In this document: positions 5,217 to 15,156 of the stretch, in pieces
Layout: the number at the start of each line of letters is the position of its first letter
How positions within the stretch are numbered: position 1 is the first letter of the stretch
Origin: Opitutia bacterium
Lineage (GTDB): Bacteria; Verrucomicrobiota; Verrucomicrobiia; Opitutales; Opitutaceae
Direction of reading: 5' to 3'
Length of the DNA: 57,942 nucleotides
Assembly: GCA_947449835.1 (NCBI GenBank)
Contig: CANFSZ010000011.1
Coordinates: 1 to 57,942 of the forward strand
Translations under genes and position numbers: made by a program
The notes under the pieces: model-generated
What the model was told of the DNA's origin: nothing
Seen by the model: only the letters and a program-made list of their open reading frames with translations
Database searches by the model: none

Positions 5217-6626
5217 TCAAAGCCCGAAGATTTTCGTCAATGCGCCCCAAAGCCCACTCCAAAAATGCCGCGCCCGGCTCGCATCGCCTTCGGCCGAAAT
5301 CTCCTGACACAAAAATACCCCGCGTCCGGCAAACAGATCATCAAACAATGGATTCACGCCGCGATAATAACTCCAAAACGTCTCCGCGCGCACGGGCCGG
5401 TAGTCGAGATTCGGCGTGAAGCCGACCGTCGCATCTTGATTGGCGCGACGAGCCGGCATCGCCTGGCCTTCGCGCTCGGCCAAGCGCTCCGCGCGCACCC
5501 CGCGGCTGCCCGCGACAATCAAGCGACAGGGTCCAACAAATTCAAAAAAACGAAACTGCAACGTCACCCAGGCCTGCCAGCGCCAGAGTTGCCAGCGACG
5601 ACGCATCTCCAGCTTTTCGCCTTCCGGCACGATGACTCCCGCCAAAAAACTCGGCCGCAACACAATCGCCGCACCCGGCGGCAACGTCAGCACCGCCAAC
5701 TCGCTCTGTGGATTGGCTTGGTTGGAGAGCGTTACGCGTTGCTCGCCGCGCCCCGCCCGCGCCTTGATTTCAAGCAGCTCAATCAATCCGGTCGCCAAGC
5801 ACGTAAAGGGAATCCGCCAATCCAACAAAAACTTCGTCGTACGTTCCACGCCTTCATCGGATGCTTGCAAAAACCGACTCTTCACCCACAGACGCTCGCC
5901 CGGCTGCAAGGCGATTTCCGCCGACACTCGACTCGTCGCCACTTCGGGCAACTCGGCCAGTTCCGGCGTGAGTCGCACGGCGCGACCACCTGCAATCAAC
6001 GGCGCGACCCCGAAATACAGCACCAGTTTACCCACCGTCGGCCCGAGAAAATAGAGCGCCAGCGCGAGGTAAACCCAATGACGCGAACGAGCCCACGCGT
6101 CTTCCAAATAATGCTGCACTTTAGATTTCTTGGCTTCGGCTGCTTTTAGCTCCGCGGTTTTTTTACCGAGCGCAACTTCCAGACCGTCGCGTTCCCAGGT
6201 CGTCCGCGTGTAGTCCTTCTGCAACGTCTCCACGCGGGCCATCGCCGCGGCGCGCAACGCGACCATTTTTGCGCGTTGCTCGGCATTGGCGCGCTGTTGC
6301 TCCGGGTTGCCCACCCAGCGATCCCAAGTGCTTTCGAGCGCTTTAAGTTGCTCGATGATTTTGCCGGCCTGCTCGGCCTTGGCGCGCTCAGCCGCGATCT
6401 CAATTTTCATCCGCTCCAGCCGTTGCTCCACATCGCCGAGGGCAGACTGAATGTGCGCCCGCTCGCCCATAATCGTCCGGATCACGTCGCGACGCCAGTC
6501 CTCGAAATTCACGTTGTCCCTCAGAAACAACCACAGCCCACCTGCGCCCAGCCCGAGCGCCAGGATGAGGCCCGCCGCCGCGGTTTTTCCCACCAACCAG
6601 CGCCCGAAATTTAGTAGAATTCCCAT
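5217..6626 (-). CDS. Membrane protein with long coiled coil and AIM24-like beta-rich C-terminus
   Basis: The protein of 469 residues has a hydrophobic N-terminal segment (about 12-37), a long charged Ala/Glu/Arg/Lys-rich helix of coiled-coil character (about 50-180), a second hydrophobic segment (WVYLALALYFLGPTVGKLVLYF, about 190-213) and a beta-rich C-terminal half. The C-terminal half contains LAVLTLPPGAAIVLRPSFLAGVIV, reminiscent of the AIM24/TerD-like beta sandwich. Two membrane segments with the coiled coil between them suggest an envelope-spanning scaffold. It is first in an operon with the HAD hydrolase (32 bp gap) and uvrB. The AIM24 relationship is a motif-level impression and the function is unknown. 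Confidence 0.75.
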   Translation of the reverse strand: MGILLNFGRWLVGKTAAAGLILALGLGAGGLWLFLRDNVNFEDWRRDVIRTIMGERAHIQSALGDVEQRLERMKIEIAAERAKAEQAGKIIEQLKALESTWDRWVGNPEQQRANAEQRAKMVALRAAAMARVETLQKDYTRTTWERDGLEVALGKKTAELKAAEAKKSKVQHYLEDAWARSRHWVYLALALYFLGPTVGKLVLYFGVAPLIAGGRAVRLTPELAELPEVATSRVSAEIALQPGERLWVKSRFLQASDEGVERTTKFLLDWRIPFTCLATGLIELLEIKARAGRGEQRVTLSNQANPQSELAVLTLPPGAAIVLRPSFLAGVIVPEGEKLEMRRRWQLWRWQAWVTLQFRFFEFVGPCRLIVAGSRGVRAERLAEREGQAMPARRANQDATVGFTPNLDYRPVRAETFWSYYRGVNPLFDDLFAGRGVFLCQEISAEGDASRARHFWSGLWGALTKIFGL

Positions 6627-6771
6627 GTTAGCAACGCACCGCTTAAGCGCGATGAGTTGCGGTCATACAAGGTTTTCAAACGCCCGATGCCAATTGCTAA
6701 ACCCGACACTCTGCTCAGACTATCGGCATAAACAAATCGCCGCCGAGCGCGGCAAAACCACCCCTGATCCC

Positions 6772-8046
6772 ATGTCCAAAGCAATTGTCTCCACCCTGTA
6801 TGATTCGGAGGTCTTCAAAATGGCTTGCCGGCAATTCGACCAAGCCGCCGATGCCATCAACCTCCCCGACGATATCCGTGACCGCACTAAATACCCACGG
6901 CGCTGCCTCGCCGTCGCCCTGCCCGTCAAGCGCGACAACGGCAGCGTCACGGTCTTCGAGGGCTACCGCGTCCAACACAATCTCTCCACTGGCCCCTCCA
7001 AAGGCGGCATACGTTTTCATCAAAACGTCACCCTCGGCGAAGTCGCAGCCCTCGCGATGTGGATGAGCTGGAAATGCTCCCTCGTCGGCCTGCCCTACGG
7101 CGGCGCCAAGGGCGGCGTCATCGTCGATCCCAATCAACTTTCCCTCAACGAACTCGAACATCTCTCGCGCCGCTACATGCAGGAGATGGTCAACTTCCTC
7201 GGGCCTCACGTCGACGTCCCCGCTCCCGATGTCGGCACCAATGAGCGCATCATGGGCTGGATGATGGACACGTATTCCAACCACGTCGGCCACGTCGAAC
7301 CCGGCATCGTCACCGGCAAACCGATCGCCCTCGGCGGTTCGCAAGGCCGACGCGAAGCCACGGGCGCCGGCGTCGCGTATCTGATTAAGCAATACCTGCA
7401 CGACCTCAAAATCCCCATCAAGAAATCCACCGTCGCCATCCAAGGCTTCGGCAATGTCGGCAGCGAGACCGCGCTCGCCCTCGATGCCTACGGCGCCAAA
7501 ATCATCGCGATTTCCGATTACACCGGCGCCTACTACAACTCCAAGGGCATCAATCTCAAAAAAGCCCTCAAATACGTCCAATACCAAAAGACGCTCCGTG
7601 ATTTCGACGGCGGTGAAGCCATCACCAACGAGCAACTCCTCGAGTTGAAATGCACCGTGCTCGTGCCCGCCGCCCTTGAACGCGTGATCACCGAGGTCAA
7701 CGCCCCCAAGCTCCGTTGCCGCGTCCTCGCCGAAGCCGCCAACGGCCCGACGACCAACGCCGCCGATAAAATCATCGAGCAACGCGGCGACATCGAGATC
7801 ATCCCCGACGTCCTCTGCAACTCCGGCGGCGTCATCGTCTCCTACTTCGAATGGCTCCAAAATCTTTCCAACTTCTATTGGAGCCGCGAAGAGGTAATCA
7901 CGAAACTCTTCGGCATCCTCGATAAGGCCAAGGCCTCCGTCGATGCGCAGAAGAACAAATTCCAATTCAGCCGCCGCCTCGCCGCGCTCACGCTCGGCAT
8001 CCAGCGCGTGGCCGATGCCAAAGCCGCGCGCGGGCTTTTTCCGTAA
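6772..8046 (+). CDS. gdhA: Glutamate dehydrogenase (Glu/Leu/Phe/Val family)
   Basis: The enzyme reversibly converts glutamate to 2-oxoglutarate and ammonia using NAD(P). The 424-residue length fits the hexameric small GDH class. The substrate-site segment GPSKGGIRFH (about 74-83) and the catalytic-lysine motif LPYGGAKGGV (Lys113) are intact, as is PAPDVGTN. The dinucleotide fold begins at IQGFGNVGS. ATG 6772 was chosen over the long upstream extension, which has no family similarity. The 145-bp gap upstream is shared with a divergent membrane protein gene. A strong terminator follows at 8062-8094. Confidence 0.95.
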   Translation: MSKAIVSTLYDSEVFKMACRQFDQAADAINLPDDIRDRTKYPRRCLAVALPVKRDNGSVTVFEGYRVQHNLSTGPSKGGIRFHQNVTLGEVAALAMWMSWKCSLVGLPYGGAKGGVIVDPNQLSLNELEHLSRRYMQEMVNFLGPHVDVPAPDVGTNERIMGWMMDTYSNHVGHVEPGIVTGKPIALGGSQGRREATGAGVAYLIKQYLHDLKIPIKKSTVAIQGFGNVGSETALALDAYGAKIIAISDYTGAYYNSKGINLKKALKYVQYQKTLRDFDGGEAITNEQLLELKCTVLVPAALERVITEVNAPKLRCRVLAEAANGPTTNAADKIIEQRGDIEIIPDVLCNSGGVIVSYFEWLQNLSNFYWSREEVITKLFGILDKAKASVDAQKNKFQFSRRLAALTLGIQRVADAKAARGLFP

Positions 8047-8061
8047 ACAGATTCCGACTCC

Positions 8062-8094
8062 AAGCGGCGCGCGCATCCGCGCCGCTTTCGTTTT
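8062..8094 (+). terminator. Intrinsic terminator after gdhA
   Basis: The 10-bp perfect stem AAGCGGCGCG / CGCGCCGCTT (8062-8071 with 8078-8087) has a 6-nt loop and is followed by TCGTTTT. It lies 15 bp after the gdhA stop and its tail touches the stop of the convergent S4-domain gene. Confidence 0.85.
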
Positions 8095-8335
8095 AACCGA
8101 CGCGCACGAGCAACGTCTCTGCGCCGTAAGTCACGCGATCGCCCGCGCGCACTTTCTTGCGCTTCTGCGTTTCAACGACGCCGTTGAGCCGCACTTGGCC
8201 CTCGGCGATCACTTGCTTCGCGTCGCCGCCCGAATCGGTCAGGCCCGCAAATTTGAGCAACTGACACAATTCAATCGGTTCTGCGCGCACGGTCACCACC
8301 GTCGGTTCGGCGTCGTTTTTAGAGGGAGTCGGCAT
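8093..8335 (-). CDS. Small S4-domain RNA-binding protein (YbcJ-like)
   Basis: The protein of 80 residues consists mainly of an S4 RNA-binding fold: IELCQLLKFAGLTDSGGDAKQVIAEGQVRLNGVVETQKRKKVRAGD, where the pattern G-x-A-K-x-x-I-x-x-G-x-V-x-x-N-G is diagnostic. Stand-alone S4 proteins of this size (YbcJ/RqcH-associated type) bind rRNA or tRNA-like helices. It lies 18 bp downstream of the FKBP isomerase gene on the same strand, so the two are probably co-transcribed. Confidence 0.88.
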   Translation of the reverse strand: MPTPSKNDAEPTVVTVRAEPIELCQLLKFAGLTDSGGDAKQVIAEGQVRLNGVVETQKRKKVRAGDRVTYGAETLLVRVG

Positions 8336-8353
8336 ATTAGGAAAAACCGCCGC

Positions 8354-8686
8354 TCAACCCACCGCGAGCAACTCGACCACGAAAATCAACGTCGCGCTCG
8401 GCGGGATCGCCCCGGGATAACCGTGTTCGCCGTAAGCGAGGTGAGGCGGCAGCGTCATCTTCACTTTGTCGCCGACTTTCATCGTCGCGACGCCGACATC
8501 CCAGCCCTCGATCACCTGACCGGCGCCGAGCACAAAGGTGAAGGGCTCGTTGCGATCCACCGAGCTGTCGAACTTCGAGCCGTCTTCAAACGTGCCCGTG
8601 TAATGCACCGTGACTGGGCGACCCTTTTTGGGCGCGGCGCCGGTGCCGGTTTTGAGAACTTCGATTTTGATTTCTGGGAGTGCCAT
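8354..8686 (-). CDS. FKBP-type peptidyl-prolyl cis-trans isomerase
   Basis: The 110-residue single-domain FKBP shows VTVHYTGTFEDGSKFDSSVDRNEPFTFVLGAGQVIEGWDVGVATMKVGDK in segments, including the active-site pattern Y-T-G, F-D-S-S, V-I-x-G-W and the C-terminal LAYGEHGYPGAIPPSATLIFVVELL. No signal peptide is present, so it acts in the cytoplasm, unlike the Mip or FkpA types. It is upstream of the S4 gene with an 18-bp gap. Confidence 0.95.
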   Translation of the reverse strand: MALPEIKIEVLKTGTGAAPKKGRPVTVHYTGTFEDGSKFDSSVDRNEPFTFVLGAGQVIEGWDVGVATMKVGDKVKMTLPPHLAYGEHGYPGAIPPSATLIFVVELLAVG

Positions 8687-8790
8687 CTCCCGATTCCCGC
8701 CAAACGCTCTCCCGCGTCAATCCCGCATCACTGCCACCGCGGCGCCCGCGCCATTGACGCCGCCCCGCAATCCGACCAGCACCAACTTCG

Positions 8791-9855
8791 ATGAAGCTCC
8801 CCCAACTCCTCGCCCTCGTCTCGTTCTGCGTCCTCATTTCCCACGCCTCACTCTCCGCTGCCCCGATGACTTCGATCACCTACCCCGCCGCCGCCGGCCC
8901 CGGCCAAGCCAAACATCTCGTCTTCCTCACCGGCGACGAAGAATACCGCTCCGAAGAGGGCCTGCCGATGTTGGCCAAGATCCTCAGCCAGCGCTACGGC
9001 TTCACTTGCACCGTCCTCTTCGCCCTCGATCCCGACGGCACGATCAATCCCGACAACAACACCAGCCTCTCCGACCCCGCCGCGCTCGACCGCGCCGACG
9101 GCATCGTGATGGGTCTCCGCTTCCGCCAGTGGCCCGACGCCGCGATGCAGCACTTCGCCGCCGCCGTCGCCCGCGGCGTCCCGATCGTCGCCCTGCGCAC
9201 CAGCACTCACGCCTTCAACTTCCCCGCCAAAAGCCCCAGCGCCTACAAATCGTTCAACAACTTCGGCCGCGAGGTCCTCGGCGAAAACTGGGTCAGCCAT
9301 TGGGGCGCCAACCGCCGCGGCGCCACCCGCGGCATTATCGAACCCGGCGCGGAGAGCGATCCGTTGCTCCGCGGCGTCACCGCGATTTTCGGCGACTCGG
9401 GTGTCTATGAAACTCATCCCGTCGCCGACGCCAAAATCCTCGTCCGCGGCCAGGTGCTCACCGGCATGAGTCCCACCGATGCGCCCGACACTTACCTCAA
9501 GAAACGCAAATCCGACGGCGTCGAACAACCCATCAACGACCCGCTCATGCCGCTCGCGTGGACGCGCCTCAATCACAACGCCAACGGCACCACCAACCGC
9601 GTCTTCTGCACCACCATGGGCGCCGCCACCGATCTCGCCAACGAAGACTTCCGCCGCCTCGTCATCAACGCCGTGCTCGCCGGTTTTGCCCTCGAGATTC
9701 CCGCGCGCGCCGATGTTCGCTACATCGACGCGTATGTGCCCACGCCCTACGCTTTCAAAGGCTACCGTCGCGGCCTCACGCCTGCCGATCACGCCCTCGG
9801 CCAAGTCCTCCGCGCGGGCACGCCTCCGCCTCCCGCCCCCGCGAAAAAAGACTGA
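8791..9855 (+). CDS. Secreted ThuA-domain-like protein
   Basis: The protein of 354 residues has a signal peptide (MKLPQLLALVSFCVLISHASLSA) and then the segment HLVFLTGDEEYRSEEGLPMLAKIL typical of ThuA-like (trehalose utilisation) proteins with a glutamine amidotransferase-like fold. It continues with VPIVALRTSTHAF and HWGANRRG. The C-terminal tail is Pro/Lys-rich (TPPPPAPAKKD). ThuA-like proteins are greatly expanded in Planctomycetes and Verrucomicrobia and are linked to sugar oxidation, but the reaction is generally unproven. trmO begins 11 bp after its stop. Confidence 0.85.
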   Translation: MKLPQLLALVSFCVLISHASLSAAPMTSITYPAAAGPGQAKHLVFLTGDEEYRSEEGLPMLAKILSQRYGFTCTVLFALDPDGTINPDNNTSLSDPAALDRADGIVMGLRFRQWPDAAMQHFAAAVARGVPIVALRTSTHAFNFPAKSPSAYKSFNNFGREVLGENWVSHWGANRRGATRGIIEPGAESDPLLRGVTAIFGDSGVYETHPVADAKILVRGQVLTGMSPTDAPDTYLKKRKSDGVEQPINDPLMPLAWTRLNHNANGTTNRVFCTTMGAATDLANEDFRRLVINAVLAGFALEIPARADVRYIDAYVPTPYAFKGYRRGLTPADHALGQVLRAGTPPPPAPAKKD

Positions 9856-9866
9856 GCTACCCCGCG

Positions 9867-10691
9867 ATGTCCGAAACTCCCGCCACACTTTCGCTCGAGC
9901 CCATCGGCTACATCCGCACGGGAAAACAGGTCAAGTTCCAGGCGCTCCATCAACCGTCCGAGCAACAGCCCGAGCGCAACGTGCTCGAGCTCGTCCCCGG
10001 CCACAATTACGAGCAAGCCCTCCGCGATCTCGCCGGTTTTTCCCGCGTCTGGCTCATCTGGTGGTTTCATCGCAACACCACGTGGCGCCCCCAAGTCATC
10101 CCGCCCCGCGGTCCCGCGCAAAGGCGCGGGGTCTTCGCCACGCGTTCGCCGCATCGCCCCAATCCCCTCGGGCTTACGCCCGTGCAACTCATCGCGATCG
10201 AGGGTCGTCGCCTCATCCTCGGTGAATGTGATCTCGTCGAGGGCACGCCGGTCTTCGATCTCAAACCTTACGTCCCAGCTTACGATAGTTTCCCCGATGC
10301 CCGCGCCGGTTGGATCGAAGAAGTCGACGCGCTCACGCGCCAAGCCCCGCAGTTCAAAGTCCACTATGCGCCGACGGCGACCGCGCAGGCCGAATGGCTC
10401 GTCGCTCATTGGCAGATCGATTTTCGCGCGCGGCTCGAAGAACTCCTCGCCCGCGATCCCACGCCGCACCGCACGCGTCGCATTCGTCGCCGCAGCGCCG
10501 ACCAACTCGAAATCGGTTGCGGCGCTTGGCGCGCGTTTTTCCACGTCGAGGGTTTTGACGTGACCGTGACCGCCCTCGACGCCGGTTTTCCCCTGCGCTT
10601 CTTGCACGACCCGCAACGCGTCGGCTTGCCCGATTGCGCTGCTCAAGTCGCCTTCCTCGCGGTCTGGCCCGAAGCGCCGCGCGCGGTTTAA
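9867..10691 (+). CDS. trmO: tRNA (N6-threonylcarbamoyladenosine37-N6)-methyltransferase TrmO
   Basis: TrmO methylates t6A37 in tRNA-Thr using S-adenosylmethionine. The 274-residue protein opens with LEPIGYIRTG, has the family signature GVFATRSPHRPNPLGLT near residue 90, and then the GTPVFDLKPYVPAYDS motif. The C-terminal region of about 120 residues includes the conserved FHVEGFDVTVT-like beta element. The ATG at 9867 lies 11 bp after the thuA-like gene. The stop overlaps that of the convergent methyltransferase gene (GTTTAAAC at the junction). Confidence 0.92.
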   Translation: MSETPATLSLEPIGYIRTGKQVKFQALHQPSEQQPERNVLELVPGHNYEQALRDLAGFSRVWLIWWFHRNTTWRPQVIPPRGPAQRRGVFATRSPHRPNPLGLTPVQLIAIEGRRLILGECDLVEGTPVFDLKPYVPAYDSFPDARAGWIEEVDALTRQAPQFKVHYAPTATAQAEWLVAHWQIDFRARLEELLARDPTPHRTRRIRRRSADQLEIGCGAWRAFFHVEGFDVTVTALDAGFPLRFLHDPQRVGLPDCAAQVAFLAVWPEAPRAV

Positions 10692-11803
10692 ACCGCCGCG
10701 CTCACCGGGCGTTTCTCGTGGCTCCAACGCCACGTATCAATGTCCGTCCAGCGGCCCACCGTTAGGCGCACCTCAATCACGTCGCCCACCGCAAAGTCCG
10801 CGCGATCCGTCCGCAGGATGCGATAGCCCCAGTGCGGCGCGCGCCCGGCATCCTTCGGTCCCGAGCTCAGTTTGAGATCCGCATCCACGCGCGCCCGGAA
10901 ATACACCGCGTAGCCATCAAGCCGCCCCGCGTTCACCACCGTGCGCGAAAAGTTAATTTCCCCCGGCAGGTCCGCCTCGTTTAAGGTGTGTAAATCTACC
11001 GAGAGCACCGGCTCCGGCTCGCCTAAAAAGTGATCCACAAACTCCGGATCACTGCTGCGCAGGTGATAATAATCGGGCTCCTGCGGGCGTTGCCGTCCCA
11101 TGCAGGCATAGTCGTAGCCATGCACGTTGAGTTCCCAGATGAACGGCACGTGCCGCGCGTCGTTCAACTTTATGGGCTCGCAGTAAAAATCGAAACAGCT
11201 CGGTAAGATCAGCCCGCCCCGCTTCAGCAGGCGATCCCGCAGGTCACACACGTTGGTCACCATCGCTTCGTCGAAGAGACAGTCGCCCATCTGTTCATGC
11301 AAAATCACGTCCACGGACTCATCCGTCGTAAACTCCGAACTGTGCGCCGCGATGAACTCCACATTCTGAATCCCATTGGCCGCCGCCAGGGTCTTCGCGT
11401 GGCGCAAAATCTCCGAATGATCCACCGCGTACACGTGAGCCGCCCCGCGTCGCGCCGCAAACGCCGCCAAGATGCCCGTGCCGGTCCCGAGATCGATCAC
11501 GCGATCCCCCGGCTGGATGTGCCGGGTGATCGCCGCGTGGTAAAACGCCATCCGCGGTTTGTCCGCCAACATCTTCTCCTGTTCGTAGAAATTGGCAAAG
11601 TACCAGCCGTTGTACTCTCGGTAACGCGACTCCGGCGATCCATCGCCCTCGGGGAAAAACCACGCCGCCAACCGCGGTCGCGCCACGATCCAGCGCCGCC
11701 CTCGGCCGATCACGCGGCTCCCCGCCGAGATCAGGCTCACACTGCAACGCTGCAAAAAAGAAGTTAACATACGGTTGGGCGGAAACCCCTCCGCTCGCGC
11801 CAC
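10688..11803 (-). CDS. Protein arginine methyltransferase-like SAM-dependent methyltransferase
   Basis: The 371-residue protein carries the class I motif VIDLGTGTGILAAFAARRGA (103-121), acidic post-I residue Asp128, and HEQMGDCLFDEAM (169-181), which matches the PRMT double-E loop with Glu170 and Glu179. APHWGYR (322-328) matches the THW loop with Thr replaced by Pro. The N-terminal YFANFYEQEKMLADKPRMAFY matches the PRMT alpha-X region. The C-terminal 180 residues look like the PRMT beta-barrel. The GTG start at 11803 is supported by an AAGGAG ribosome binding site 8 nt upstream; ATG 11770 is the alternative. By family knowledge it should methylate a guanidino nitrogen, in protein or a small molecule; the substrate is unknown. 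It is transcribed divergently from xseB-dxs. Confidence 0.85.
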   Translation of the reverse strand: MARAEGFPPNRMLTSFLQRCSVSLISAGSRVIGRGRRWIVARPRLAAWFFPEGDGSPESRYREYNGWYFANFYEQEKMLADKPRMAFYHAAITRHIQPGDRVIDLGTGTGILAAFAARRGAAHVYAVDHSEILRHAKTLAAANGIQNVEFIAAHSSEFTTDESVDVILHEQMGDCLFDEAMVTNVCDLRDRLLKRGGLILPSCFDFYCEPIKLNDARHVPFIWELNVHGYDYACMGRQRPQEPDYYHLRSSDPEFVDHFLGEPEPVLSVDLHTLNEADLPGEINFSRTVVNAGRLDGYAVYFRARVDADLKLSSGPKDAGRAPHWGYRILRTDRADFAVGDVIEVRLTVGRWTDIDTWRWSHEKRPVSAAV

Positions 11804-11811
11804 GGTGCCCG

Positions 11812-11817
11812 CTCCTT
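11812..11817 (-). promoter_or_regulatory. Ribosome binding site fixing the GTG start of the PRMT-like gene
   Basis: AAGGAG on the minus strand sits 8 nt before GTG 11803. The alternative ATG at 11770 has no such site, so this element decides the start. Confidence 0.7.
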
Positions 11818-11834
11818 CCCGCAGCGCAACCTCA

Positions 11835-11849
11835 GCTTATGCCATAAGC
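11835..11849. promoter_or_regulatory. 15-bp inverted repeat in the PRMT-like/xseB divergent promoter region
   Basis: GCTTATG-C-CATAAGC is a perfect 7-bp inverted repeat around one base. It sits in the 93-bp gap between two divergent genes, so a protein bound here could affect both. No matching regulator gene is nearby. Confidence 0.4.
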
Positions 11850-11896
11850 CCTTAAAGATTGTTTGAAACCGTCGCCCGCCCACCCATCTTCCCCTC

Positions 11897-12139
11897 GTGG
11901 AAACTAAGGAAAGCAAACTCTCATTCGAGACCGCCCTCAATCAGCTGGAGTCCATCGTCGAGACGATGGAGTCCGGCGACGTGCCTTTGGCCGACCTCCT
12001 CGCCAAGTTCGAGCAGGGCTCCAAACTCCTGAAAGTCTGCGAATCCCGCCTCAAAGACGCCGAGCTCAAGATCGAGTTGCTCAAAAAACAAAAAGACGGC
12101 GCTTCATTCTCCAGCTTCGAGCCCGAGCGCGGCGCCTGA
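11897..12139 (+). CDS. xseB: Exodeoxyribonuclease VII small subunit
   Basis: The 80-residue protein matches XseB throughout: LSFETALNQLESIVETMESGDVPLADLLAKFEQGSKLLKVCESRL, followed by a charged coiled-coil end with ELKIELLKK. The small subunit stabilises the XseA nuclease in a single-strand DNA exonuclease. xseA is not in the window. The start is GTG at 11897. It is followed after 56 bp by dxs; in many bacteria ispA lies between them, but not here. Confidence 0.92.
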   Translation: METKESKLSFETALNQLESIVETMESGDVPLADLLAKFEQGSKLLKVCESRLKDAELKIELLKKQKDGASFSSFEPERGA

Positions 12140-12195
12140 GTCGCATCGGCCTCCTGTACTTTTCACCACCTCCGCCTTTCCTGCTTCCGCTTCTG

Positions 12196-14121
12196 ATGAA
12201 CGTTTCTCCCGCTCGCCTTCTCGAGACCATCCACGGCCCCGCCGACGTCAAAGCCCTCGCGCCCGGCCAACTGCCCCAACTCGCGCAGGAAATCCGCGAC
12301 GAAATCATCGCCGTCACCGCCAAGAACGGCGGCCACGTCGGGCCCAACCTCGGCGTCGTCGAGCTCACGCTCGCCCTGCACCGCGTCTTTGATACGCCCA
12401 ACGACCAATTCGTCTTCGACGTCGCCCACCAAGGCTACGTCCACAAGCTCCTCACCGGCCGCCAAGGCGCGTTCTTCCGCGGCCTCCGCCAATCCGGCGG
12501 CACCAGCGGTTTCCTTTACCGCGCCGAGAGTCCGCACGATAGTTTCGGCGCCGGCCACGCCGGCACCGCCTTGAGCGCCGCCCTCGGTATGGCCACCGCC
12601 CGCGATCTCCGCGGCAGCTCCGAACACGTGGTCGCCGTCTGCGGCGACGGCGCGTTCACCTGCGGCGTCACGCTCGAAGCCCTCAACAACATCGTCGGCT
12701 CCACCAAGCGCCTCATCGTCATCCTCAACGACAACGAGTGGTCCATCGCCAAAAACGTCGGCGCCATCTCCACCTACCTCAACCGCCTCAGCACGAGCAA
12801 AACTTACAACAAGCTCCACCACGACATCGAGGGCTTCTTTAAGAGTTTCCCCACCGGCGAGAGCCTGAACCGCGTTTACCACAAATGGAAACGCGAGACG
12901 AAGGACTTCTTCGTCGAATCCTCCCTCTTCGAGAAATTCGGCCTGCGCTACCTCGGTCCCGTCGACGGCCACGACCTCGACGCGCTCCAGAAAAACCTCG
13001 AGTTCGCCCGCCACGCCGATGTGCCCGTGCTCATCCACGTGCTCACCAAAAAAGGCAAAGGCCTCGAAGCCGCCCTTGCCCAACCCGAGAAATTCCACGG
13101 CCTCGGCTCCTTCGATCCCTCCACCGGCGAGAGCAAAGCCGCCGCCCCCGGCACCCCGCCCAATCTCCAAGACGTCTTCGGCCACGCCCTCGTCCGCTTC
13201 GCCAAGGCCAACCCCAAGATCCTCGGCATCACCGGCGCCATGCCCAGCGGCACGGGCTTGATCCACCTCGCCAACGAGGTTCCTAAACAATTCTTCGACG
13301 TCGGCATCGCCGAGGAGCACGCCGTGCTCTTCGCCGCCGGTCTCGCCACCAAGGGCTTCCGCCCCGTCTGCGCGATTTACTCCACCTTCCTCCAGCGCGC
13401 CTACGACCAGGTCATCCACGACGTCGCCCTGCAAAACCTCCCCGTCACTTTCTGCATGGACCGCGCCGGCCTCTCCCCCGCCGATGGCCCCACGCATCAC
13501 GGTCTCTTCGACATCGCTTACCTCCGCTGCGTCCCCGGCGCCACGGTCATGCAGCCCAAAGACGAGGACGAACTCGTCGACATGCTCCACACCAGCCTGC
13601 AACTCCCCGGCCCCGGCTTCATCCGCTACCCGCGCGGCGCCGGCACGGGCGCCAAGATCAAAGCCCAACCCGTCGCCCTCCCCCTCGGCCAAGCCGAGGT
13701 CTTGCGCGACGGTACCCAAATCATGATCTGGGCCCTCGGCCCCATGATCGCCGACGCCCTCGCTCTCGCCGAACGCCTCGCCCGCGAGGAACACCTCTCC
13801 GTCGGCGTCGTCAACGCCCGCTTCATCAAGCCTCTCGACCGCACGCTCCTCCTCCGCCAGGCCAAGCTCGTACCGCTCATCGTCACCATGGAAGACCACG
13901 TGCTCGCCGGCGGCTTCGGCAGCGCCGTGCTCGAAACCTTGCAAGACGCCGCCTGCCCCACCGCCGTCGAACGCATCGGCTGGCCCGATAAATTTGTCGA
14001 ACACGGCTCGAGCAACGCGATCTTGCGCAGCTCCTACGGACTCGCACCCGACGACATCCACCGTCGCGTCCTCGCCCGCTGGCGCAACCTCCGCGCCGAG
14101 CCCGCCCCCAACGACGCCTAA
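12196..14121 (+). CDS. dxs: 1-deoxy-D-xylulose-5-phosphate synthase
   Basis: Dxs makes DXP from pyruvate and glyceraldehyde 3-phosphate with thiamine diphosphate, the entry step of the MEP isoprenoid pathway. The 641-residue length is normal. Seen motifs: GHVGPNLGVVELTLALH with the conserved His, VCGDGAFTCGVTLEALNN (ThDP-binding GDG...N), HVLTKKGKGLEAA, DVGIAEEHAVLFAAGLA with the catalytic Glu, and YSTFLQRAYDQVIHDVALQ with DRAGLSPADGPTHHG. It belongs to a two-gene xseB-dxs unit. Confidence 0.96.
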   Translation: MNVSPARLLETIHGPADVKALAPGQLPQLAQEIRDEIIAVTAKNGGHVGPNLGVVELTLALHRVFDTPNDQFVFDVAHQGYVHKLLTGRQGAFFRGLRQSGGTSGFLYRAESPHDSFGAGHAGTALSAALGMATARDLRGSSEHVVAVCGDGAFTCGVTLEALNNIVGSTKRLIVILNDNEWSIAKNVGAISTYLNRLSTSKTYNKLHHDIEGFFKSFPTGESLNRVYHKWKRETKDFFVESSLFEKFGLRYLGPVDGHDLDALQKNLEFARHADVPVLIHVLTKKGKGLEAALAQPEKFHGLGSFDPSTGESKAAAPGTPPNLQDVFGHALVRFAKANPKILGITGAMPSGTGLIHLANEVPKQFFDVGIAEEHAVLFAAGLATKGFRPVCAIYSTFLQRAYDQVIHDVALQNLPVTFCMDRAGLSPADGPTHHGLFDIAYLRCVPGATVMQPKDEDELVDMLHTSLQLPGPGFIRYPRGAGTGAKIKAQPVALPLGQAEVLRDGTQIMIWALGPMIADALALAERLAREEHLSVGVVNARFIKPLDRTLLLRQAKLVPLIVTMEDHVLAGGFGSAVLETLQDAACPTAVERIGWPDKFVEHGSSNAILRSSYGLAPDDIHRRVLARWRNLRAEPAPNDA

Positions 14122-14169
14122 GTCCGTCGGTTAAGATCAGCGTCAGAAGCGCTCCGGTGCGCTTGCCCT

Positions 14170-15156
14170 ATGTCTCTCCCCACTAACATGCGTCTTTTGC
14201 AGATCGTCGCGCCCGGCCGCGCGGAATGGCGCGAGGCGCCCGTGCCTGTTCCCGGTCCCGGCGAAGTCCTCGTCCGCATCCGCGCCGTAGCCACATGTCC
14301 GCATTGGGACCTCCATATCTTCGGCGGCCAACCGATGTTTCCCGGCGCCCCGCTCGATTACCCTTATCTCCCCGGACAACCCGGCCACGAGGCCGTCGGC
14401 GAGATCGTCGCCCTCGGGCCTGAGGTCACTTCATTTCGCGTCGGCGCGCGTGTCGCTGTCTGGCGCGACACCGGGCGACGCCCGCAAGGCTGTTACGCGC
14501 AGTTCAACGTGCTCCGCGCCGACGATCTTCTCGAGGTCCCCGCGCACTTGCCCGCAGCCGCGCTCGCTTCGCTCGAACTCGCGATGTGCGTCGAGGTTTC
14601 CTTTCAACAACTCGCAACGCTCGGCGGCGTCGCTGGTCGTCGGCTCGGGCTCTCCGGCCTCGGCCCCGCCGGTCTCGTCGCCGTGCAACTCGCCCGCGCT
14701 CACGAGGCCGCCGAAATCATCGGCTTCGATGTCGTCGCCGAGCGTCGCGCCCTCGCCTCTCGCCTCGGCGCGCACCGCACCCTCGCGCCCGATGCCGTCA
14801 CTTGGCCGCCCGCGCGTGATGACTCCGCTCTCGACGACGCGATTGACCTCACCGGCTTGCCCGCGTCGATCGAGTTTCTCATGGATCGCACGCGCCGCTG
14901 CGTGACGCTCTTCGGCGTGCTGCGCGAAGACGTGCACTTTAAGCCGCGCCACCTCTTCGGTCCCGGCCTCATGCTCATGGGCTACGGCGAACACCATCGC
15001 GCCGCCGCCGAGACCGCCCTGCGCTGCATCGTCGCGGGTCAACTCCAGTTGGCTCCGCTCATCACGCACACGTTGCCCTTCACGCGGTACGCCGAGGGCG
15101 TGGAGTTGTTGCGCACGAAACAAGCCGTCAAAATCCTCTTCGATCCGTGGCTCTGA
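14170..15156 (+). CDS. Medium-chain dehydrogenase/reductase, zinc-poor type
   Basis: The protein of 328 residues is an MDR-family oxidoreductase: GRAEWREAPVPVPGPGEVLVRI, a GHEAVGEIVALG segment and a Rossmann core LSGLGPAGLVAVQLAR. It keeps C-P-H-W-D-L-H near the usual catalytic zinc site (ATCPHWDLH) and GHE, but has no four-cysteine structural-zinc loop, so it resembles threonine dehydrogenase-like enzymes lacking the structural zinc. ATG 14170 is used; ATG 14188 (MRLLQIV) is equally plausible. The gap to dxs is 48 bp. The substrate is unknown. Confidence 0.8.
   Translation: MSLPTNMRLLQIVAPGRAEWREAPVPVPGPGEVLVRIRAVATCPHWDLHIFGGQPMFPGAPLDYPYLPGQPGHEAVGEIVALGPEVTSFRVGARVAVWRDTGRRPQGCYAQFNVLRADDLLEVPAHLPAAALASLELAMCVEVSFQQLATLGGVAGRRLGLSGLGPAGLVAVQLARAHEAAEIIGFDVVAERRALASRLGAHRTLAPDAVTWPPARDDSALDDAIDLTGLPASIEFLMDRTRRCVTLFGVLREDVHFKPRHLFGPGLMLMGYGEHHRAAAETALRCIVAGQLQLAPLITHTLPFTRYAEGVELLRTKQAVKILFDPWL

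Follow-up and report, generated by a model that had tools for sequence, protein, structure and literature searches.

Protein arginine methyltransferases (PRMTs) are commonly regarded as a family of eukaryotic enzymes. The PRMT motif list in an excerpt of PMC12925635 comprises motif I (VLD/VGxGxG), post-I (V/I-x-G/A-x-D/E), motif II (E/K/VDII), the double-E loop (SExMGxxLxxExM), motif III (LKxxGxxxP) and THWxQ. In mouse PRMT2, as described in part of PMC8623767, the pocket for arginine is built from two tyrosines of helix X together with the THW loop, and two glutamates make salt bridges to the guanidinium. In bacteria, SznE/StzE is presented in an excerpt of PMC11705231 as an arginine-guanidino methyltransferase acting together with SznF. 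According to part of PMC12637814, the saskemycin cluster was discovered with the help of a distant SznE homologue. Judged by title and start of the abstract, the papers listed on bacterial PRMTs and bacterial arginine methylation contained no recognised bacterial family of the kind described here, and those listed on Verrucomicrobia and arginine methyltransferases contained no such enzyme.

The window, that is, the whole stretch of DNA analysed (57,942 nucleotides of an Opitutaceae genome, contig CANFSZ010000011.1), encodes a protein which, judged by sequence and predicted fold, is a genuine relative of the eukaryotic arginine methyltransferases. The protein shares with type I PRMTs (PRMT1, PRMT2, PRMT3, PRMT6, PRMT8, Hmt1, CARM1 and Arabidopsis 3r0q) the domain order, motifs I, post-I and III, the double-E spacing, an HW loop and an arm-like insert. 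It differs from them in its identity, which was 22–28% in the listed Foldseek alignments (best 50 of 931), in a basic amphipathic N-terminal helix, and in several active-site residues. Compared by description, SznE/StzE and the window protein are alike in being bacterial and in having a guanidino acceptor, which is a proposed one for the window protein. SznE/StzE sits in a natural-product cluster, of which no sign was seen among the genes scanned near the window gene.

The gene and the predicted fold of its product

The preliminary description had reported an ORF on the reverse strand at 10688–11803, and this frame was indeed open for 371 codons from a GTG at 11803. Residues are counted here from that GTG, which keeps the numbers of the preliminary description. 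An in-frame ATG at 11770 corresponds to residue 12. Because the orthologue L004 (93% identical) has a stop at the third codon counted from the GTG position, and because Met occupies the position of the ATG in 30 of 31 aligned rows (most of them trimmed beforehand to begin there), the true start is probably this ATG, giving a coding sequence at 10688..11770 (−) and a protein of 360 aa; with the GTG as the alternative start, the protein would have 371 aa. The ORF is real, conserved and under purifying selection, with dN/dS of about 0.06–0.15 (Nei-Gojobori) when the window gene is compared with the seven relatives that follow it in the 31-row alignment. Promoter and terminator scans found nothing.

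Among the best 60 of 115 phmmer matches to PDB sequences, arginine methyltransferase 3r0q was at the top (9.9e-27, residues 58–347), followed by PRMT2 (2.2e-26), PRMT8, and then PRMT2 and PRMT1. When the profile of the 31-member family was used, 3r0q was matched at 4.3e-38, and 59 of the 60 matches listed (of 70) were named arginine methyltransferases. The remaining one, 8rbk, carries a clone name only and scores beside PRMT9 when the verrucomicrobial protein L062 is the query. The AlphaFold2 monomer model, calculated with the 31 family sequences as input, had a pLDDT of 78.6 and a pTM of 0.72, and contained an N-terminal helix, a Rossmann domain and C-terminal strands at the position of the PRMT barrel, with residues 220–246 in the arm region at low confidence. 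Foldseek gave 931 matches at E 0.001 or better; the 50 listed were all PRMTs, the best of them at 1.6e-22 with a TM of 0.68 by query length. In profiles, model and Foldseek, the PRMT matches spanned the SAM domain, the arm region and the C-terminal barrel.

The barrel strands, interrupted by the arm region, were assigned to residues 203–365 (10709..11197, −) from the model, Foldseek and PF22528, so that the predicted structure, by model and Foldseek against the PDB, has the C-terminal beta-barrel after the SAM domain that marks PRMTs. The PRMT fold and the barrel position had been proposed from the letters alone, with structure prediction and comparison with PRMT folds as the check, and PDB sequence matches, model and Foldseek all agreed with them. 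The profile search with PRMT models, also suggested at that time, was positive for the family, as PF22528 matched 26 of 31 members at E 0.01 or better, but the window protein itself (9.5e-5, 22.8 bits) stayed under the 27-bit cut-off. Residues 220–262 (11018..11146, −) aligned with the PRMT dimerisation arm, where WELNVHGYDYAC resembles WWENVYGFDMSC of PRMT1.

The N-terminal helix, basic and amphipathic, covers residues 12–40 (11684..11770, −), and the model has a helix at 11–40. Of the 31 members, 30 had a hydrophobic moment above that of shuffled sequences (their mean) in the first 20–24 residues (mean z 1.76, one negative), a signal that is only modest because the 31 members are kin. The net charge of the helix ranged from +1 to +6 across the 31 members. 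This helix may serve as a surface or membrane anchor.

Conserved and altered residues of the active site

Motif I was present as VIDLGTGTG (residues 102–110, 11474..11500, −), with I for L and L for V, and its D104 and three glycines were invariant in 31 of 31 rows. Post-I was present as VYAVD (residues 124–128, 11420..11434, −), in agreement with the published motif and with A126 and D128 invariant. Motif II was VDVI, a conservative change, and motif III was LKRGGLILP (residues 193–201, 11201..11227, −). The alpha-X/alpha-Y region (residues 65–85, 11549..11611, −) has N65 and F69 at the position of YFxxY, followed by EKMLADKPRM, where R84 would be the arginine that binds the SAM carboxylate, by analogy with R133 of mouse PRMT2 (part of PMC8623767). 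Invariant in all 31 rows were E170, E179, M172, G173, H324, W325, R84, D104 and D128.

The double-E loop HEQMGDCLFDEAM (residues 169–181, 11261..11299, −) agrees with the DNA and has six of the seven fixed letters of the published motif, with H for S. E170 and E179 have a nine-residue spacing, as in type I PRMTs. The patterns HEQMGD.LFDE.M and RAPHW were present in 52 of 52 loci (51 checked by pattern, L053 by reading), and the E, M, G, L, E and M of the loop were thus kept in all of them. These loci, 39 from a contig scan and 13 from a profile scan, one being the window, represent 50 distinct proteins including that of the window, since two repeat others. The double-E in PRMT spacing, as first read in the window, therefore stood in alignments and in every locus. 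The HW motif, also read there, was confirmed as APHW (residues 322–325, 10829..10840, −), which agrees with the DNA and is the counterpart of the THW loop with T replaced by P. In all 52 loci, PHW was followed by GF, GY or AY, so that H and W of THWxQ were kept and T and Q were lost. PRMT9 departs at THW in the same alignment as well, with TCW.

Other positions of the pocket were altered. YFxxY of type I PRMTs was absent, with N65 and F69 invariant there in 31 of 31 rows, and the Trp and Tyr of SEWMGY were replaced by Q171 and D174, both invariant in 31 of 31 rows. The double-E loop contained extra invariant acids, D174 and D178, and the loop ahead of HW exceeded that of PRMT1, PRMT3 and Hmt1 by two residues. 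Two remarks of the preliminary description did not survive the alignments. Asp128 had been listed as a departure from the ribose-binding Glu, a remark that falls because PRMT3 (GVDQSEIL) and yeast Hmt1 (GVDMSS) have an aligned Asp, and the YFANFY/YFANF stretch taken as an alpha-X match was three residues out of register with YFxxY, N65 and F69 being the truly aligned positions. As read from the alignments, the clamp glutamates are retained and the pocket wall is altered uniformly across the family (N65/F69, Q171/D174 and P323). Since every aligned member lacks YFxxY and has PHW for THW, the pocket appears unlike that of type I PRMTs, and for the missing YFxxY and Thr the protein is not filed as a type I PRMT. 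With THWxQ absent, the family is named a PRMT-fold variant and not a standard member; by the features listed it is a divergent one.

Distribution, phylogeny and other bacterial lineages

A contig scan of 84,980 species, in which exact-pattern seeding detects close relatives only, found 39 loci, all from records titled Opitutae, Opitutia, Opitutaceae, Opitutus, Rariglobus or Verrucomicrobia MAG. In a profile scan that scored five candidates per genome, 13 of 37 listed genomes of the window's taxonomic family matched at E 1.1e-150 or better, and no match at that level came from the 350 further genomes sampled from the phylum. Next in rank stood other PRMT-like proteins (1.4e-47 to about 1e-16); matches at 1e-11 or weaker covered short SAM-domain stretches and resembled generic methyltransferases. 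The gene was present at E 1e-90 or better in 32 of 120 sampled genomes of the family, once as a fragment, and five of the 120 had only more distant PRMT-like proteins. The window protein had no match in the plasmid and phage collections. Within the collections searched, close relatives were seen only in Opitutaceae, as judged by record titles.

A PRMT_C match above the cut-off was obtained in 6 of the 288 genomes scanned from the phylum, in two cases through the window's protein family, and in none of 14 control genomes. The view that PRMT-like enzymes are rare in bacteria was therefore right as to degree, but several other bacterial PRMT-like lineages were found.

One of these lineages, here called OpiB (L056 and L080–L083, with L086 as the longer stretch around L056), is a second PRMT-like family in Opitutaceae. 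OpiB keeps YFxSY or YFxTY, SEWLG...E and THW, has 311–321 aa where the start is clear, and by its sequence resembles the textbook type I PRMTs more than the window gene does. Both OpiB and the window protein are from Opitutaceae, are PRMT relatives by sequence and have a double-E, but L056 is only 33% identical to the window protein, and OpiB has THW and forms a separate clade (L056, L080, L082 and L083). THW is also present in L057 and L058, which belong to other families of the phylum, and the best PDB match of L057 was PRMT8 (8.5e-54). L061 (463–2529, +) and L062 (520–2595, +) encode proteins of about 690 aa in Verrucomicrobiota outside the window's family. L062 matched 8rbk at 5.7e-39 and PRMT9, its best named PDB match, at 5.6e-38, and PRMT_C was found in it twice. 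L059 (1351–2592, −) and L060 (1045–2244, −) are PRMT-like and extended at the N terminus by about 110 residues, which had no Pfam match at E 0.05 and might bind a peptide or partner; their double-E loop is SEIIGNDPL.

A tblastn search with L057 found relatives in 12 of 72,556 plasmid records; six of the twelve carry the label L11 methyltransferase, and four were read in detail. Plasmid PRMT-like proteins came from Tistrella, Pantoea and Tropicibacter. On the Pantoea plasmid, the PRMT-like gene labelled L11 methyltransferase (L090, 5935–6900, +) stands in a row with genes for a Rieske protein, an iron-containing redox enzyme, an MFS transporter and ATP-grasp proteins, which looks like a small biosynthetic operon. 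L057, L058, L061, L062 and these plasmid proteins are PRMT relatives like the window protein, with a double-E-like loop in those aligned, but were placed elsewhere in the tree than the window's family.

The phylogeny against bacterial and eukaryotic PRMTs that had been suggested at the outset was run with 33 rows, ten from the window's family and eight eukaryotic (partial PDB segments), with CARM1, PRMT5 and PRMT6 outside the set and several rows showing long branches or odd composition. The window's family formed one clade (100/100) with a stem of 1.9 changes per column, separate from the eukaryotic type I rows used. The six type I rows formed a clade (98/99) that left out the window's family. 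A recent transfer from inside the eukaryotic type I group is thus disfavoured and was unsupported in this tree, which gives no date. L061, L062 and the three plasmid proteins fell on the PRMT7/9 side, and the split from that side was weak (72/81). The placement of the window's family relative to OpiB, L057/L058 and the type I clade had no clear support in the 33-row tree.

Gene neighbourhood and the probable acceptor

In the window, the PRMT-like gene lies in divergent orientation to xseB and dxs. With a TrmO-type tRNA methyltransferase gene (9558–10691, +; PF01980, 1.4e-35) it is convergent and shares four bases, and genes for FKBP and glutamate dehydrogenase lie further out. In a search with the window's own proteins as queries, which diverged neighbours may escape, the arrangement between xseB–dxs and trmO, with FKBP, was seen in the nearest relatives only, and neighbours differed elsewhere. 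No neighbour was common to all 32 loci compared (of 39). As judged by eye, a response-regulator-like gene was upstream in 10 loci, a gene like those for DTW-type tRNA modification was near the PRMT-like gene in L013, L019 and L028, and an argA/argB-like gene was found in L009, L014, L031 and L033 at a distance of 0.4–4.7 kb on the opposite strand, possibly by chance. No SznF-like or other natural-product gene was present among the neighbours scanned at window 6451–15156. Since the neighbours change beyond the nearest relatives, the gene behaves as that of a stand-alone enzyme, and this is more in keeping with an independent modifier than with an enzyme of a gene cluster.

The window's genome encodes RG-rich proteins, which are candidate acceptors. 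In this genome, a family search for DEAD-box helicases turned up two with an RG-rich region, which is N-terminal in one and C-terminal in the other (L094, 949–2637, +; L095, 77–1516, +). An HtrA-like protease, so named by eye (L101, 1159–2706, +), has an RGGRGNRGGRG stretch ahead of the protease domain; it was one of 30 loci read from 58 matches of an RG pattern. No RRM protein was found in this genome, which is 86.7% complete. The helicase tails were compared as a marker of the substrate by taking the best L095 match, which may be a non-orthologous helicase, from each of 12 chosen genomes with the gene and 12 chosen genomes without it, absence being called from the five-candidate profile scan. 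The mean RG count was 2.2 with the gene and 1.75 without it (Mann-Whitney p 0.25), and the RGG count was 0.4 with and 0.8 without it (p 0.86). The tails showed no association with the gene, and four carriers had one RG or none, so this marker was rejected.

The best explanation, which we hold with moderate confidence, is that the protein is a PRMT-fold, SAM-dependent N-methyltransferase whose acceptor would most likely be an arginine of a protein or peptide. Protein or peptide arginine is ranked first because the gene is stand-alone. A small guanidino molecule, such as free arginine or agmatine, is ranked second because the bacterial SznE acts on arginine in streptozotocin biosynthesis. The altered double-E loop, with its additional acids, could fit another acceptor, and the argA/argB-like gene, as named by eye, was near 4 of the 32 loci examined for shared neighbours (of 39); this gene may be chance synteny, however, and no sign of a biosynthetic cluster was seen among the neighbours scanned at window 6451–15156, so that we regard a small-molecule acceptor as unlikely.

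It is considerably less probable that the protein, though PRMT in fold, now acts on another nucleophile or is an inactive scaffold, with the double-E as a relic. The long stem branch is consistent with such a change, as is the loss of YFxxY, of the T of THW and of the W and Y of the double-E loop, the last two now Q and D. However, proteins with 59–96% identity to that of the window share, without exception, the Glu pair, H, W and the aligned residues that bind SAM, which a relic is not expected to keep, and the low dN/dS likewise argues against it. Very improbable is a ribosomal protein L11 methyltransferase (PrmA) or another generic methyltransferase, as the L11 name on half of the plasmid relatives of L057 would have it. 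In all 31 members, the SAM domain was matched by PrmA and generic methyltransferase Pfam models (E 0.01 or better), and some of these models were above the cut-off for the window protein. The PrmA match was limited to residues 91–169, the best NCBIfam PrmA model reached 39.7 bits against a cut-off of 188, and the longest and best matches were PRMTs. As the models match the SAM domain only and the equivalog models are far under their cut-off, the L11 and generic readings were rejected.

Taking the window protein as an arginine methyltransferase of the PRMT fold, we propose that it probably acts as a dimer and binds SAM in the Rossmann domain. At the interface of SAM domain and barrel, Glu170 and Glu179 would clamp the guanidinium, His324 and Trp325 would close the pocket, and the methyl group would be moved from SAM to a guanidino nitrogen. 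The acceptor would most likely be an arginine in a cell protein or peptide, perhaps at the membrane, where the basic amphipathic N-terminal helix may hold the enzyme. From alignments and model, the family is probably a divergent bacterial PRMT-fold subfamily of guanidino N-methyltransferases. The preliminary description was correct in its main points, and the bacterial arginine or guanidino methyltransferase that it suggested is still the preferred reading. More tentatively, and with somewhat less confidence than we give to the enzyme activity itself, Opitutaceae may own a membrane-held protein-arginine methylation enzyme that belongs to a PRMT-fold subfamily with a rebuilt pocket (HEQMGD for SEWMGY and PHW for THW) and does not come from within the eukaryotic type I clade.

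The family is a natural variant in which PRMT product and substrate choice can be studied, being conserved, under purifying selection and consistently altered in its active site, and it provides outgroup sequences for tracing how eukaryotic PRMTs arose. Annotation as "L11 methyltransferase" can hide such genes, as with several plasmid-borne relatives of the PRMT fold. The gene in the window is a concrete one for asking whether bacteria use arginine methylation, and if the proposal for Opitutaceae is true, arginine methylation would be a regulatory protein mark native to bacteria.
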